64,000 bases of DNA from contig NZ_PYFX01000006.1 of the NCBI RefSeq assembly GCF_003020115.1, positions 124,001-188,000 of the forward strand, in the 5' to 3' direction. Within the stretch, counting starts at the first letter, position 1. Each line of letters starts with the position of its first letter. The position numbers were made by a program, and so were the translations under genes. The notes beneath the pieces are model-generated. The model searched no databases and was not told the DNA's origin. It was given only the letters and a program-made list of their open reading frames with translations. Below are positions 45,401-51,755 of the stretch, piece by piece. This stretch comes from Bradyrhizobium sp. MOS002 (GTDB lineage: Bacteria; Pseudomonadota; Alphaproteobacteria; Rhizobiales; Xanthobacteraceae).

Positions 45401-46147
45401 TTAGCCCCGCCGATAGAGTTGCAGATAGCTCGGCGAGAACAGCGCCGCGTCCTTGAGCGCATCGAGATCGGTGATGGTCAGCGTGCGATCGCGCAGCACG
45501 ATCAGGCCGGAGGCACGCAACTCCTGAACCGTGCGATTGAGGTGGACCACCGACAGGCCGGTGGCGTCAGCAAGATCCATTTGCGTCACCGGCATCACGC
45601 AGGAATTGCCCTCGACCATGCCGACGGGACGCAGCCGCTCGATGATCTCGCAGAACAAATGGGCCACGCGTTCAAAAGCCACCCGTCGGCCGAGATTGAT
45701 GGCCCATTCGCGCTGGATCGCGTTGTTGACGAGGGTCTCACACCAGAACGCTTCCGCCAGCGCGCGGTCGCTCGCCACCAGCCCCTCGAACCGCGCGCGC
45801 TTGATTTCGGTGTAGACGACCGGCGTCATCGCCGCGATGGAATGATCCATCACCGACAGCAGGAACGCGTGCGCGTCGCAGCTTTCGCCGGGAAAGAGAA
45901 AATTGACGATCTGGCGCCGGCCATCCTCGAGCGTCTTGTAGCGGCAGAGCCAGCCCGACAGCACGAGGCGCACGCTGTCGACCGGATCGCCCTCCGAGAT
46001 CAGATCCTCGCCCGTCCCTGCGCGCTGGATTCCCTCGAGCATTGCGTATTCGAGCGAGCTGCGGGCCTCCATCGACAACGGCCTCAGCACGTTCAACCGG
46101 CGAATGACCGGGTCAACCATGCTGCGATCTAGCGTCGACAAGGGCAT
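45401..46147 (-). CDS. Crp/Fnr-family transcriptional regulator
   Basis: 248 residues. An N-terminal cyclic-nucleotide-binding-like beta-roll (LISEGDPVDSVRLVLSGWLC, IVNFLFPGESCDAHAFLL) precedes a C-terminal winged helix-turn-helix (VTQMDLADATGLSVVHLNRT, VQELRASGLIVLRDR). There is no FNR cysteine cluster at the N-terminus, so the effector is not obvious. The ATG at 46147 overlaps the stop of the sensor-kinase gene in a TGATG, so the two are translationally coupled. In rhizobia such regulators often follow hybrid or HWE kinases. The longer frame to 46207 was not used. Confidence 0.9.
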   Translation of the reverse strand: MPLSTLDRSMVDPVIRRLNVLRPLSMEARSSLEYAMLEGIQRAGTGEDLISEGDPVDSVRLVLSGWLCRYKTLEDGRRQIVNFLFPGESCDAHAFLLSVMDHSIAAMTPVVYTEIKRARFEGLVASDRALAEAFWCETLVNNAIQREWAINLGRRVAFERVAHLFCEIIERLRPVGMVEGNSCVMPVTQMDLADATGLSVVHLNRTVQELRASGLIVLRDRTLTITDLDALKDAALFSPSYLQLYRRG

Positions 46148-49100
46148 CAGTTGGCCACCGCCGGTGTATGAAACGCCCGCCTGCTGAGGGGAATGGTGAT
46201 CGTGCATTCCAGTCCCCTCGGATTGAATGCCATCGTGGTCTGCCCCTTGAACTCAAACGCGAGTGTGCGCTCCAGAAGCTCGGTCCCAAATCCCTTGTGC
46301 GGCGGCGGCGCAACCGGCGGCCCGCCGCGCTCCCGCCACTCGAACACCAGTTCCGCCGGGTCGGTGCCCTGCTCGAGGCGCCAGGAAATCTCAATGCGAC
46401 CTGTCGGCCGGCTCAGGGCGCCGTATTTCAGCGCGTTGGTTGCGAGCTCGTGAATGGCAAGGGCAAAGGTTTCCGCCGCCTTCGACTGAAAACGCACCGG
46501 GGGGCCGCTGACACGTACCTGCTCGCCCTCCCTGGCATTATAGGCCAGCAGCTCCTCGACGGCGAGGTATTCGAGATCGACGCCGCCCTCGGGATCGCGG
46601 GTCACCAGCGCCTGGGTACGGGCGAAGGCGTTGAGCCGGCCGTCGAGATGGGAGGCAAACTCCTCGACCGTCGAGCTCGTATCGGCCGTGCGACGGGCGA
46701 TCGAGCGCACCACGCCGAGCGTGTTGCGGACCCGATGCTGGAGTTCGGCCAGCAGCAGGCGCTGCCGCTCCTCGGCGCGGGTAATGGCGGTGATGTCGAC
46801 GAACGTGATGACGACCCCGGCGATGAAATTGTCGATGCTGCGATAGGGCAGGATGCGCACGATGTAGCGTGTGCCGCTGTCCGGCGCCCTCAGCTCGCGC
46901 TCGGCGCTGGCAAGCGTCCGCAGCACGCCGCGAATGTCGTCATAGAGCTCCTCGATCGGGATGCGCGCCTTGATATGCGCGATCGGGCGACCTCTGTCGG
47001 TTTCGACCAGATGCAGAACCTGCGTGATCGCCGGCGTGAAGTTCATCACGCGCAAATCGTTGTCGAGGAAAACGGTCGCGATCTGCGTGCTCTCCAGGAA
47101 ATTCTCGAGGTCGCTGGTGGCGCGCGTCAATTCCTGGACGCGGTGAGCCAGCTCGCCGTTCACGGTGGTCAATTCCTCGTTGACCGACTGAAGTTCCTCG
47201 CGTGAGGTTTCAAGCTCTTCGTTCGCGGACTGAAGCTCTTCGTTGAGCGACTGGTATTCCTCGTTCGACGACTTCAGCTCCTCGTTGGTGCTTTCGAGCT
47301 CTTCGATGGTTGCTTGAAGCCGCTCCCGCGTCGCCCGCAGCTCGCCTTCGATACGCTCGACATGCTCAGTCTGCCCCAGCGCGTTGGGCTTGCCCTCGCC
47401 GGCCTCGATGGCGCGCACCGGACCGTCCTTGAACAGGACGACGAAATTGCGGTTGCCGCTGCCACCCTCCTGGATCGGTTCCACCGTGATGTCGACGGGT
47501 ATATGCTGGCCGTTGGCGCCGAGCTGCACCTGCTCGGCATGGGCCGGCTCGTTGGTCTCCGCCGCGCGGCTGAGCACCGCGCGCAGGTCCAGCCGGAGAT
47601 CGCGGTGGACGAGTTGGACCAGATCGAGCGTGGCAGCGCCTGCCGTCGGCTCGATATAGCGGCCGGTGCGCCCTGAAAAGTGCAAGACCTGAAAGTTGCT
47701 GTCGGTAATGACATAGGCGGGCGCGTAGCGCTCCGCGATCCGCTGCGCGCGGCGTTCCAGGCCGATGTCGGGGCGAAATGAGCGCAACGGCGGCACCTCG
47801 GCGGCCCTCCCGGCGGCGGTCGTGATCGGAAATTCCGGCGGCAACCGTGTTCCTGTCTCGAGCTTCTTGAAGATGCGGGCGCGGCGGTCGATCGGCAAGA
47901 ATAGTATTGGATGCCTCGTGACGTTCTCGGAATTGCCGAGGAACAGGAATCGATCCGGCAGAAGCGCGAAGTGGAATAGCGGGATCACCCGGTTCTGCAA
48001 TTCGGCATTGAGATAGATCAGCAGGTTGCGGCAGGAGACGAGATCGAGCTTCGAGAACGGTGCGTCCTTGATGACGTTGTGCTGCGAGAAGATGCACATC
48101 TCCCGCAGCTCCTTGACCACGTAATAGGTATCCCCCTCGCGCACGAACCAGCGCGCCAGGCGCTCGCTGGTCATGTCCGCCTCGATCTTGGTGCGATAGC
48201 GGCCGACACGCGCGGCCGCCAGCGCCCGTCCGTCGATGTCGGTCGCGAAGATCTGAACCTGCGGTGGCGAGTCCATCTTGGCCATGTGCTCGCGCAGGAG
48301 GATCCCGATCGAATAGGCCTCCTCTCCGGTGGCGCATCCGAGCACCCAGACGCGAACCTGCTGGCCCGCGTCCTTGCCTTCGAAGAGCTTCGGAACGATC
48401 TGGCTCTCCAGCACTTCGAATTCGCGTTTGTCGCGGAAGAATTCGGTGACGCCGATCAAGAGGTCGTTGAAGAGGTGCTGCGCCTCGTGCTCGTCGTTGC
48501 GCAGGAAATCGACATAGGCGGAAATCTGGGCGATCTGGGCCACCTGCATCCGCCGCTGCACGCGGCGGAGGAAAGTGTTCTGCTTGTAGCCGTGAAAATC
48601 ATTGCCGGTCCTGCTGCGCAGGATATCGGCGATGCGCGACAGCGAGGTCGCTGCAGCCGCCAGTTCCTCGTCGAACCCCTGCTTCTCTTCCAGCCGCCGC
48701 AGATGGCGGGCATAGACCTGGACGTGCTCGGCAATCTCTTCCGGAGAGAGCACGTAGTCGGCGATCGCCGCCGGCGTATCGGAATCTTTCAGATGATCAG
48801 ACCCGTCACGCGCGCCTTTTTCGGCGATGGCGAGACCACCGTGATCCTTCAGTGTCGCGGTACCCAGCGTGCCATCGCCGCCGACGCCGGACAGGATCAC
48901 GCCGATCGATTGCTCGGCGCGTTCTTCCGCCAGCGACACCAGGAAGCTGTCGATCGTGGCTCGCTCGCCGGGCGCCTGCTCGGCCGCGCGGACGCCGAAG
49001 CGACCGCCGTGGATCGTCGTGATCATCGCCGCCGGGCACAGATAGATCCTGCCGCCCTCGATGGTCTGGCCGTCGCTGATGTCGGCGATCTTGCCGCCGT

Positions 49101-49311
49101 TGGAGTGTTGCACGATCCGGCGTAGCCGCGGTTCGTCGAGCGCCTCGTGATGTTGCAGCGCCAGCACGACGGCCTGGTCGGCGCCCACGGTCAGCTTGGA
49201 AAAGAACCGCTCGACGCTATCCAGAGCTGTCGGCGCAGCGCCCACCCCGATGATCAGCGGAGACCTGGTCTGGCGCTCTCTTTCGACCGGCTGGTCACCG
49301 ATGTCATGCAT
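46147..49311 (-). CDS. CheB-CheR-PAS-HWE histidine kinase fusion
   Basis: 1054-residue signalling protein. Domains in order: CheB-like methylesterase (about 16-205); CheR methyltransferase (about 225-480, with WVLGCATGEEAYSIGILL as the SAM site); a PAS region (about 545-650); a long coiled coil of SxNEEL repeats (about 690-770, e.g. ELESTNEELKSSNEEYQSLN); a second PAS (about 775-880); and an HWE/HisKA_2 kinase (about 890-1040). The kinase has the phospho-His in LLAELQHRVRNTLG, the N box HELATNALKYG and EWRERGG. In the CheB part the catalytic Ser is replaced by Ala26 (GVGAAPTAL), while His and Asp are kept. No receiver domain is present, so a separate partner is needed. Start ATG 49311. It is coupled to the Crp/Fnr gene. 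Confidence 0.93.
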   Translation of the reverse strand: MHDIGDQPVERERQTRSPLIIGVGAAPTALDSVERFFSKLTVGADQAVVLALQHHEALDEPRLRRIVQHSNGGKIADISDGQTIEGGRIYLCPAAMITTIHGGRFGVRAAEQAPGERATIDSFLVSLAEERAEQSIGVILSGVGGDGTLGTATLKDHGGLAIAEKGARDGSDHLKDSDTPAAIADYVLSPEEIAEHVQVYARHLRRLEEKQGFDEELAAAATSLSRIADILRSRTGNDFHGYKQNTFLRRVQRRMQVAQIAQISAYVDFLRNDEHEAQHLFNDLLIGVTEFFRDKREFEVLESQIVPKLFEGKDAGQQVRVWVLGCATGEEAYSIGILLREHMAKMDSPPQVQIFATDIDGRALAAARVGRYRTKIEADMTSERLARWFVREGDTYYVVKELREMCIFSQHNVIKDAPFSKLDLVSCRNLLIYLNAELQNRVIPLFHFALLPDRFLFLGNSENVTRHPILFLPIDRRARIFKKLETGTRLPPEFPITTAAGRAAEVPPLRSFRPDIGLERRAQRIAERYAPAYVITDSNFQVLHFSGRTGRYIEPTAGAATLDLVQLVHRDLRLDLRAVLSRAAETNEPAHAEQVQLGANGQHIPVDITVEPIQEGGSGNRNFVVLFKDGPVRAIEAGEGKPNALGQTEHVERIEGELRATRERLQATIEELESTNEELKSSNEEYQSLNEELQSANEELETSREELQSVNEELTTVNGELAHRVQELTRATSDLENFLESTQIATVFLDNDLRVMNFTPAITQVLHLVETDRGRPIAHIKARIPIEELYDDIRGVLRTLASAERELRAPDSGTRYIVRILPYRSIDNFIAGVVITFVDITAITRAEERQRLLLAELQHRVRNTLGVVRSIARRTADTSSTVEEFASHLDGRLNAFARTQALVTRDPEGGVDLEYLAVEELLAYNAREGEQVRVSGPPVRFQSKAAETFALAIHELATNALKYGALSRPTGRIEISWRLEQGTDPAELVFEWRERGGPPVAPPPHKGFGTELLERTLAFEFKGQTTMAFNPRGLECTITIPLSRRAFHTPAVAN

Positions 49312-49472
49312 GGTCTCGATAGCCTCATTCAGCGACGGGAACCAGAGGACGCCCGCTCGCCGCAAATAGCAGAATTGATATTATCCCAACAGGTGCAAGG
49401 CGGAAACGTCACGCTACGTTCCACGGCGAGCATTGAGCTTGCCACTTAGGCGGCGTGCCAACGTCCCCCGGA

Positions 49473-49749: not shown

Positions 49750-50757
49750 TCAAGCCTCCCGCTTGCGAACCGGGGGATCGAGCGACTTTAGCACGACGCG
49801 CCGGATCATGTCGGCATATTCGCGATATTCTGCAGCCCGCGCCTGATACATCTCTGCAACTGCAGGGCGGCCGTTGCGCCGTCCGTCGGCGGCCATGCGC
49901 TGCACCAGCTCAGCTCGCTCCTCGATGATGCGCAGTGCGACCCGCAGGGCTTCATCCACTTGCCCCTCCTGCTCTTTTGCGAGGATGTCCGCGCCGAAGG
50001 CGTGACCGACCTGGCAACGGAAACGCATCGGGTGCGATTCCTTCACCTCGGACAGCACGCCCCCGCAGGCCGGACAGGTCAGTGCAACTGGATCAGCCAC
50101 CGAGAGGAGCTTGTCACTGCCGATCCGTTCGCCCGCCGCGATCTCGACCTCGAGCCGGATCTCGGGCGGGATCGGCAGCGCGGCACCCGCAACCTCCCTG
50201 GCGAGATCGGACAGAACGTCACCCATTCCGGCGCCGGGGACGCAAAGATCGATGATGCTCGCCTCCAGGGCGCTCCGTGGCATTTCATCGGCGATGGCGT
50301 CCGAGGGGTCCTGAACCACCGAGATCCCGCCGCAACGCTTGATGGCGTTGAGACCCGCCGAACCGTCGGACAAAAGGCCACTGAGAAGTACACCGATCAC
50401 GCGCGGGCCGTAATTGATGGCGGCCGAGCGGAACAAGGCGTCGATGGCCGGCCGGACCATGTTCTCGCGCGGACCGCGCCCGAGGAACACGTGATCCCCG
50501 GACAGCAGCAGATGGTGATCAGGTGCGGCCAGATAAACCTGGCCGGGCTCGATCTTCATGCCGTTTTCGGCCTGTCGGACCGGAAGCGGCCCGGCGCTGC
50601 TGGCGACTGTCGAGAGAATGCCGATGCCTTGCGCCGGGATGTGCAGCACGATGAACACCGCCGCGGGCAGATCGGGCGGCAGCCGGCCCAGGATCTGCTT
50701 CAGCGGTGCGGTCGCGCCGGCCGAGCCACCTATGACGATGATGTCGCGGTTGCTCAT
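49750..50757 (-). CDS. CheB-type methylesterase domain protein
   Basis: 335 residues. The N-terminal 185 form a CheB esterase domain with its triad intact: Ser12 in IVIGGSAGATAPL, His39 in FIVLHIPA, and Asp in LLSGLLSDGSAGL. There is no receiver domain in front of it. After a linker comes a zinc-ribbon-like part (LTCPACGGVLSEV, FRCQVGHAFGAD) and a helical C-terminus. This architecture is common near HWE kinases and is not part of a standard chemotaxis operon. The target receptor is unknown. It is divergent from the response regulator gene; the start codon lies at the edge of that gene's EcfG-type promoter. Confidence 0.9.
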   Translation of the reverse strand: MSNRDIIVIGGSAGATAPLKQILGRLPPDLPAAVFIVLHIPAQGIGILSTVASSAGPLPVRQAENGMKIEPGQVYLAAPDHHLLLSGDHVFLGRGPRENMVRPAIDALFRSAAINYGPRVIGVLLSGLLSDGSAGLNAIKRCGGISVVQDPSDAIADEMPRSALEASIIDLCVPGAGMGDVLSDLAREVAGAALPIPPEIRLEVEIAAGERIGSDKLLSVADPVALTCPACGGVLSEVKESHPMRFRCQVGHAFGADILAKEQEGQVDEALRVALRIIEERAELVQRMAADGRRNGRPAVAEMYQARAAEYREYADMIRRVVLKSLDPPVRKREA

Positions 50758-50783
50758 GGAACCCACTGTCGGTTGTATTCGTT
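50758..50783 (+). promoter_or_regulatory. EcfG-type general stress promoter
   Basis: GGAAC-N17-CGTT, an exact match to the alphaproteobacterial EcfG consensus, ending 61 bases before the ATG of the response regulator. The -35 element abuts the start codon of the divergent CheB gene. Confidence 0.7.
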
Positions 50784-50844: not shown

Positions 50845-51249
50845 ATGGCGATATCGCCTACGTCATCAGCTCCGCTGTCGCCGCTCAGCGGGCGCCGGAT
50901 CTTCGTTGTCGAGGACGAATATTTTCTCGCGGACGACATTGGCAGGGCATGTCGCGCGCTCGGCGCAGATGTCGCTGGACCGGTGGGCGATCTCGGCGAC
51001 GCACTCAGGATCCTACGCGACGGCAGCATCCTGGATGCCGCCGTGCTCGACGTGAATATCCGCAGCGAGATGATCTTCCCGGTCGCGCGCGAACTGAAGG
51101 CAAGGAACGTCCCCTTCATCTTTACGACCGGATACGACAGGGTCACGATCAGTCCGGAATTCCACGACGTGCTGATCCTGGAGAAGCCGATCGATCTGCC
51201 GGCGATGGCCCAGAGGCTGGCCGCGCTGATCGCCGATCCACATGGTTGA
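50845..51249 (+). CDS. Single-domain response regulator
   Basis: 134-residue receiver domain with no output domain. Acidic pocket Glu23-Asp24 (FVVEDEYFLAD), phospho-acceptor Asp69 in AAVLDVNI, Thr in FIFTTGYD, and the conserved Lys in LILEKPIDLP. Such stand-alone receivers near HWE kinases often act as phosphate sinks or partners. The kinase at 46147-49311 lacks its own receiver and is the obvious candidate (inference). The gene follows an EcfG-type promoter, and AAAGGAAGG precedes the ATG. Confidence 0.9.
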   Translation: MAISPTSSAPLSPLSGRRIFVVEDEYFLADDIGRACRALGADVAGPVGDLGDALRILRDGSILDAAVLDVNIRSEMIFPVARELKARNVPFIFTTGYDRVTISPEFHDVLILEKPIDLPAMAQRLAALIADPHG

Positions 51250-51261
51250 GCCTAACGGCGA

Positions 51262-51342
51262 TCAGAACAGATGCGCGAAAGCGAGCCAAGCGGTCACCGC
51301 CAGGCACAGCAGCACCGCAGCATAGGGCAACGCGATCCGCAA
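51262..51342 (-). CDS. Micro-protein, 26-residue single transmembrane helix
   Basis: Short frame from TTG 51342 to TGA, reading MRIALPYAAVLLCLAVTAWL then AFAHLF. Nearly the whole peptide is one membrane helix. GGGGAAGG lies seven bases before the TTG. It begins 20 bases after the next micro-gene upstream ends, so the two look like an operon. The TTG start and tiny size make it uncertain, but such a hydrophobic frame with a ribosome site is unlikely by chance in this GC context. Confidence 0.5.
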   Translation of the reverse strand: MRIALPYAAVLLCLAVTAWLAFAHLF

Positions 51343-51362
51343 ATCAGCAGCCTTCCCCGCCC

Positions 51363-51458
51363 TTAGCCCACCATCATCCAGACGATCGCCGCCATCATCA
51401 CCAGAAAACCCGTGATTGCCGTTGCGATAAAGGCCTGTTCGACGCGATCCATCGGCAT
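51363..51458 (-). CDS. Micro-protein, 31-residue single transmembrane helix
   Basis: Frame from ATG 51458 to TAA 51363: MPMDRVEQAFIATAITGFLV then MMAAIVWMMVG. A polar start with acidic residues leads into one Met-rich membrane helix. A strong GGAGAAGGGGG ribosome site ends five bases before the ATG; a second ATG at 51452 is also in frame. No known micro-protein family (KdpF, CydX and similar) was recognised. It may form a small operon with the 26-residue peptide downstream. Confidence 0.6.
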   Translation of the reverse strand: MPMDRVEQAFIATAITGFLVMMAAIVWMMVG

Positions 51459-51755
51459 CACAGCCCCCTTCTCCAGCCGAACCAATCTGCCGGACTGGGC
51501 AGCCACGCGCATTAGGCTATGTGAATCGGATTCCTCCTTTGTCGATGCGGGGGCGGCGGGGCCCTCAGCTTAGATTGCGACGGTATCGTTCTACGACTTC
51601 GCCGTGCCCGGCTCCGCCATCTTGCGATGCTGCTTGGCCAGCATCTCGTTCGGGTGCGACGCAAAGATTTTTGCACCGTGCGATAGCAACCATCGTTCGC
51701 TGTTCGACTTGGATGTCCGACTTGGATGCCTCGTACCGCTCGCGGGAGAATAGAG

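Follow-up and report, generated by a model that had tools for sequence, protein, structure and literature searches.

Between a response regulator gene and an alcohol dehydrogenase (ADH) gene of Bradyrhizobium sp. MOS002, an initial annotation had placed two tandem micro-genes on the minus strand, here termed P1 and P2, each for a single-helix membrane peptide. The locus raises the question of whether frames this short are genes and, if so, what their products would serve. The window analysed is the whole stretch of 64,000 nucleotides that holds the locus, and 265 genomes of the same genus were used for comparison. The frames of 31 and 26 codons lie where they had been placed, separated by a spacer of 20 bases, and each is preceded by the ribosome-like site claimed for it (Table 1). 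A G-rich stretch occupies the position equivalent to the P1 site in most aligned loci. TTG is the sole start codon available to P2. Each frame has one hydrophobic stretch and a peak Kyte-Doolittle hydropathy of 2.18 (19-residue window); the peak of P1 begins at F10, and P1 has one predicted helix. These values agree with the description of each peptide as almost wholly one helix, and on hydropathy both products are predicted to insert into the membrane as single transmembrane helices. The window has 412 micro-frames of 24–35 codons, seven of which reach a hydropathy of 1.6. Two of these seven, P1 and P2, are the only ones with an SD-like site visible upstream. The surrounding stretch had been described as some 500 bases long and otherwise empty. 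The gap between the regulator and ADH genes is indeed 506 bp, but aside from P1 and P2 it holds a remnant of a short-chain dehydrogenase-type (SDR) gene and a 20-bp element.

Table 1. Features of the P1/P2 locus and of the adjacent signalling genes, in window coordinates.
Feature	Position	Strand	Description
CheB-CheR-PAS-HWE histidine kinase	46147-49365	minus	Pfam CheB, CheR, PAS_10 and HWE_HK
CheB methylesterase	49750-50766	minus	PF01339, E 2.4e-49
EcfG-type promoter of response regulator	50758-50783	plus	GGAAC-N17-CGTT; motif match
Single-domain response regulator	50845-51249	plus	convergent with the pair; PF00072 E 4.6e-4 and NF009972 E 7.4e-8, both below cut-offs
Hairpin (10-pair stem)	51226-51265	minus	covers P2 stop and 3' end of response-regulator gene
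P2 (26 codons)	51262-51342	minus	TTG start 51340-51342, stop TGA 51262-51264; MRIALPYAAVLLCLAVTAWLAFAHLF
Predicted P2 ribosome-binding site	51351-51358	minus	purine-rich ggggaagg, between P1 stop and P2 start
P1 (31 codons)	51363-51458	minus	ATG 51456-51458, stop TAA 51363-51365; MPMDRVEQAFIATAITGFLVMMAAIVWMMVG
Predicted P1 ribosome-binding site	51464-51474	minus	purine-rich ggagaaggggg; from sequence
20-bp element	51508-51527	minus	GATTCACATAnnnTAATGCG (also written GATTCACATAGCCTAATGCG); 49 bases upstream of P1 start
SDR gene remnant	51594-51653	minus	last 20 codons, 95% identical; remainder of gene missing (deleted)

Strong P1 matches (E ≤ 5e-7) were found at 80 loci in 80 of the 265 genomes. 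At permissive thresholds, with paralogues included, P1 is matched in 166 of the 265 (E ≤ 1) and P2 in 133 of the 265 (E ≤ 10). Of the 80 strong loci, 76 carry a same-strand P2 directly downstream of P1, the intervening gap being 19–62 nt apart from a single case of 123 nt, as counted from the best 109 P1 rows (E up to 0.0146) and the best 135 P2 rows (E up to 0.0243). The four strong loci without a paired P2 are those of G218, in which P2 is broken, and of G081, G082 and G267; G082 and G267 have distant P1 relatives and no regulator nearby. Frame breakage in relatives with conserved flanking genes had been named as the outcome that would speak against the micro-genes. Such breakage is rare: counted from an inner Met, the P1 frame is 28 residues or longer at 78 of the 80 loci, the exceptions being G221, which lacks the last few residues, and G086, which is cut short by a premature stop, and P2 is broken or was not found in only the four loci listed above. 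The kept order and short spacing argue for a bicistronic micro-operon with a presumed shared transcript.

We then compared substitutions among 77 distinct P1 and 70 distinct P2 sequences. The pN/pS ratio in the proposed frame is 0.237 for P1 and 0.316 for P2, and ranges from 1.10 to 2.18 in both shifted same-strand frames. One antisense frame gives 0.46 for each gene, which is expected where its variable positions coincide with those of the gene frame, and the other antisense frames give 1.04–2.56. The counts of start codons and of pN/pS are drawn from 78 P1 and 70 P2 sequences extracted from the 80 loci, leaving out G221 and G086 (short P1), G218 (broken P2), and P2 sequences missed by the extraction pattern. 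Across the 70 loci, the codon at the P2 start position, the one before Arg2, is TTG in 62, CTG in four, and ATG, TTA, CTT and TGG in one each; the CTG, CTT, TTA and TGG codons belong mostly to a more distant clade and make a start at this position less certain there. Inside the P1 and P2 bodies, TTG makes up 41 of 520 leucine codons (7.9%), a contrast with 62 of 70 which indicates that TTG is kept as a start codon. The kept frames, order, spacing and start codon put a chance origin out of reach. The synonymous-rich conservation and the pairing expected of the micro-genes were both found among Bradyrhizobium genomes. Comparison establishes the coding, the tandem order and the TTG start. It is near certain that P1 and P2 are conserved protein-coding genes, known here by comparison rather than by expression, and they are lineage-specific micro-genes that are real by every comparative test run.

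Other ways of reading the frames were tried and rejected. A longer P1 starting from the ATG at 51512 would give a 49-codon frame, which is not kept among relatives. The frame of P2 relative to P1 varies among loci, which speaks both against a longer P2 start and against programmed frameshifting that would join P1 to P2. P1 was also examined for a receptor-like methylation site, judged by the general consensus of such sites; this reading was dropped because relatives do not consistently have E or Q in the position following E7. At the other end of the pair, a 65-nt segment with the 51226-51265 stem folds at −27.2 kcal/mol and has no T run, and a similar stem recurs in several, not all, of 16 loci folded. 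The hairpin is a possible shared transcript end of P2 and the regulator gene.

Searches of Pfam returned no match for P1 or P2, DUF1127 included, and those of NCBIfam gave for P1 one match far below the cut-off (SCO2097, E 0.15). The earlier statement that neither peptide belongs to a known family therefore holds for Pfam and NCBIfam. As judged from sequence, P1 and P2 are two micro-protein families of a known general kind that have no curated model in these databases. The residues P6, C13 and W19 are invariant in the P2 family alignment (23 rows). A scan of 84,980 named species with one peptide pattern yielded 46 confirmed loci, all titled Bradyrhizobium. Two profile searches within the family, covering 296 and 292 genomes that belong mainly to other genera, gave no convincing relative outside Bradyrhizobium (best E 0.0154 for P2 and 0.0025 for P1). 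Plasmid searches with the two peptides found nothing; a DNA search led to a plasmid with the SDR/ADH context, and the part of this plasmid that was read has no full 20-bp element.

CydX, KdpF, AcrZ and MgtS are small single-helix membrane regulators or subunits of 25–50 residues, often missed by annotation. P1 and P2 are similar to them in size and in having one hydrophobic helix, but differ in forming a tandem pair, in lying beside a signalling module, in being found in one genus only, and in matching no Pfam or NCBIfam model. A precedent for tiny proteins contacting a sensor kinase is provided by small DUF1127 proteins of less than 50 residues, which bind the kinase PhoR in Agrobacterium and E. 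coli according to the excerpted text of PMC12501420, whereas P1 and P2 have no DUF1127 match and their contact with a kinase is only proposed. Ribosome profiling of S. meliloti, as described in sections of PMC10117765, revealed translated products of less than 30 residues, a TTG start and one-helix candidates; P1 and P2 resemble this small proteome in size, TTG and helix, but their families were not found outside Bradyrhizobium. The two frames may already be listed in supplements on Bradyrhizobium small frames (PMC5082802) or start sites (PMC4842269).

We then inspected the region upstream of P1. When one mismatch is allowed in its 19-base form, the 20-bp element lies ahead of P1 at all but one of the 80 strong loci (79 of 80), and GATTCAC is likewise present upstream of P1 in 79 of 80. 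In an alignment of P1 upstream regions, the mean column identity is 0.98 within the element versus 0.57–0.73 in the flanks, which establishes it as a conserved part of the locus. At 82 P1-linked sites the element ends 45–67 nt before the P1 match. It is probably the core promoter or operator of the pair, as its position and conservation suggest. The element holds GATTC, a CcrM site (GANTC), and a GcrA/CcrM-regulated promoter was considered for the pair. For Caulobacter, the extended GcrA motif YGAKTCK is reported (PMC7987155); unlike in YGAKTCK, the base after GATTC in the element is A, not K. Among the literature text matches listed for gattcacat, none has Bradyrhizobium in its title, and no earlier description of the element was found in the excerpts of the Bradyrhizobium literature consulted. 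An Rfam search near the pair gave one chance-level match only.

The element is not confined to P1. The 265 genomes contain 148 sites of the 19-base form, compared with two of a reversed control pattern, and 66 of the 148 lie elsewhere than ahead of a listed P1; these 66 are spread over 41 genomes, and eight of them are exact. The genome of the window itself has one site at no more than one mismatch and two further sites at three mismatches. We read 27 non-P1 sites, namely 26 of the 66 and L167 of the window's own genome, and found 14 of them upstream of one family of about 65 residues carrying GWMVYDRERKGPA. Where an ATG or GTG is clear, the start codon of this family is 70–80 nt from the first element base (152 in L310), a distance similar to that of P1. 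The other non-P1 sites precede a ligase-like gene, another hydrophobic micro-frame, or hairpins seen by eye. Eight element-bearing loci gave no Rfam family at gathering level.

The 65-residue family behind the GATTCACAT element has the consensus GWMVYDRERKGPALIGTDxAANLTKEQAE and is found at L167 (G000:C56:339164), L170, L179, L302, L304, L308, L312, L316, L321 and others. The one member scanned has no Pfam or NCBIfam match. In L181 and L314, GATTCACATAAG occurs as two tandem copies whose starts are 19 bp apart, and the second copy is the one that forms the full element; this arrangement suggests a DNA-binding protein. In L168, L193 and L194, the element is followed by a hairpin recognised by eye, CCCCAGCA...TGCTGGGG, which resembles a short RNA gene and has no Rfam match.

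The neighbourhood of the pair is conserved on one side only. Drawn so that the pair reads from left to right, a typical locus consists of the pair, the response regulator on the opposite strand, CheB, a coiled-coil protein, and the CheB/CheR-PAS-HWE kinase. A convergent regulator lies within 1.5 kb of P1 in 76 of the 80 strong loci, while the left flank varies, with SDR in 38 and ADH in 35 of the 80. Of the context first described for the pair, the regulator side is conserved and the ADH side is not. Regulator orthologues at E ≤ 1.2e-49 have P1 beside them in 74 of 74 cases, in a comparison of 101 rows with E down to 2e-35 plus G119. For 24 of the 80 P1 loci the sequence spans only about 2 kb and could not contain most of the module; of the 56 long loci, 52 have the regulator and the kinase, 46 have CheB, and 45 have the coiled coil. 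CheB is found in 67 of all 80 loci and is absent from nine that retain the regulator. In at least six long loci (G170, G271, G027, G021, G160 and G005), the best kinase match covers the PAS-HWE half only. Owing to these CheB losses and half-length kinases, the constant part of the module is the regulator and the HWE kinase. Inspection of the loci with the PAS-HWE half (L170 parent G170, L117, L034, L035, L133 and L038) showed that CheB is missing in five of the six.

The regulator has a promoter of its own. Of 67 intergenic regions between regulator and CheB, 62 have the motif GGAAC-N15..18-GTT pointing towards the regulator; the EcfG consensus is given as GAAC-N16,17-C/GGTT in the passages of PMC4814048 consulted. 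None of the 80 P1 loci has an EcfG-type promoter within 200 nt upstream of P1, so the pair and the regulator are probably not co-regulated. MrrA is a single-domain regulator of the alphaproteobacterial general stress response (PMC5964349, in part). The neighbouring regulator is akin to it in resembling NF009972 and PhyR receivers, in its EcfG-type promoter and in the adjacent HWE kinase, but the portion of the MrrA account available (PMC5964349) does not mention membrane micro-genes as a conserved companion. Hydropathy peaks at 1.65 in the kinase, 1.86 in CheB and 1.11 in the regulator. As the peaks of the kinase and CheB fall within Pfam domains, we took the module as soluble, and P1 and P2 would be its only membrane part.

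Both peptides have relatives that stand alone. The genome that contains the window has one such relative of P1, MDNVERSFAAATAAGFVVLVIGIGLLVLL, between a DUF2798 gene and a recA-like gene, which by eye we take to be recA. P1-like micro-genes of the form MDxVERSFAAATAAGFVVLV... with DUF2798 and recA-like flanks were seen at L160 (G000:C67:62785-62868), L041, L042 and L043, and L160 has no element within 130 nt upstream. P2-like genes that stand alone encode about 26 residues and start with ATG; they occur in varied places (L150-L156 and L164), several per genome in some, and share no common neighbourhood across 10 places compared.

Our first choice for the function of the pair, to which we give a little under an even chance, is a micro-operon whose peptides assist the regulator/HWE-kinase module as accessory partners in the membrane. 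Specifically, P1 and P2 would be transcribed together from a promoter built on the element, which lies some 50 nt ahead of P1; each would be translated from its own ribosome site, with TTG as the start of P2, and inserted in the membrane as one transmembrane helix, where together they would tether or tune the adjacent stress-signalling module. The linkage of pair and regulator is established, and it persists although the opposite flank differs from locus to locus. On the regulator tree, the presence of the pair changes state twice versus 18.4 times in shuffles (0 of 500 as low), a contrast that near-copies inflate, on a tree whose root is for drawing only and in which G009 is poorly placed. 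A single origin of the pair appears in 0% of bootstrap trees, and the tree leaves gain versus loss undecided. G086 also favours the tie: its best regulator match (E 2.6e-19) falls short of a close orthologue, the module is not found within 7 kb, and it is in this genome that P1 has its premature stop and the element a mismatch. In 20 genomes with a more distant regulator, the kinase is present in 20 and CheB in 19, while the pair is absent (G150 has a solo P1), which makes the pair at most an accessory. Further observations count against the tie. In G120, the pair and the element are intact, yet some 660 kb separate them from the module, whose regulator gene is split. CheB and CheR vary among the P1 loci, the pair lacks the EcfG-type promoter of the regulator, and the solo relatives of P1 and P2 occupy other contexts. 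The linkage may also partly reflect shared descent of the locus. The split regulator gene of G120 (L322 6669-7056) is in two oppositely oriented pieces beside CheB, the coiled coil and the kinase, which is consistent with an inversion.

The chief competitor of the accessory-partner reading, our second choice and a tentative but real possibility, is that the pair is a free-standing envelope or stress micro-operon belonging to a regulon of the GATTCACAT element, with the module as a stable neighbour only. The element heads other small genes, the GWMVYDRERKGPA family at 14 of the 27 non-P1 sites among them, and 66 of its 148 sites in the 265 genomes lie away from a listed P1, the reversed control pattern having two sites in all; moreover, the P1-like and P2-like solo genes live elsewhere and the pair does not share the EcfG-type promoter of the regulator. 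What speaks against it is the convergent regulator, retained by 76 of 80 P1 loci despite the variable other flank. The initial annotation had leaned towards regulation of a larger membrane complex, and no such complex is seen as a conserved neighbour, the regulator and HWE kinase beside the pair looking soluble. It is unlikely in our estimate that P1 and P2 act like CydX, KdpF or AcrZ, as small subunits or regulators of some membrane enzyme or transporter whose genes lie at another locus: their size, their single helix and the invariant Pro, Cys and Trp of the P2 family would suit helix packing, but only the module, SDR and ADH were identified by family among the neighbours, and the peptides match no Pfam or NCBIfam model. 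On the variable side, where recurrent neighbours alone were identified by family, no gene cluster is common to all loci.

Two further readings weigh much less against an accessory role at the module. Type I toxin-like or membrane-depolarising peptides would be short and hydrophobic as P1 and P2 are, and might have solo relatives such as those of P2, with up to seven matches per genome (E ≤ 10); the fixed position of the linked pair and the purifying selection that retains polar and aromatic positions make such a function very improbable. An antisense RNA partner, as type I toxins have, was looked for in Rfam, which gave the chance-level match alone. We give hardly any credence to the idea that P1 and P2 are not genes and merely accompany a conserved regulatory RNA, or antisense transcription that runs into the regulator gene. 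The pair does converge on the regulator, with 15 nt from the P2 stop to the regulator stop in the window and the hairpin over the P2 stop, but substitution is synonymous-rich in both frames, the spacer varies in length among loci, and the P2 start is kept as TTG and not as any leucine codon.

The accessory-partner reading can be extended to an undescribed Bradyrhizobium circuit, in which a near-invariant GATTCACAT-N5-AATGC promoter element would switch on a set of micro-genes, and P1 and P2 would assemble in the membrane as the membrane input of the soluble HWE-kinase module, which in many strains has CheB and CheR domains but no chemoreceptor adjacent. We consider this circuit unlikely; that neither CheB nor CheR is a constant partner lowers its odds further.

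Both micro-protein families are genus-wide and have no entry in Pfam or NCBIfam. Their start codon, control element and genetic neighbour are all defined, and they are open to direct testing. The element offers a handle on other micro-genes of nitrogen-fixing Bradyrhizobium symbionts. If the link to the module is true, very small peptides would bring a soluble stress kinase to the membrane. Wherever the distance from P2 to the regulator exceeds 150 nt among the 27 loci aligned, the intervening DNA contains a conserved stretch, by eye a putative short frame that starts with MIY on the regulator strand.
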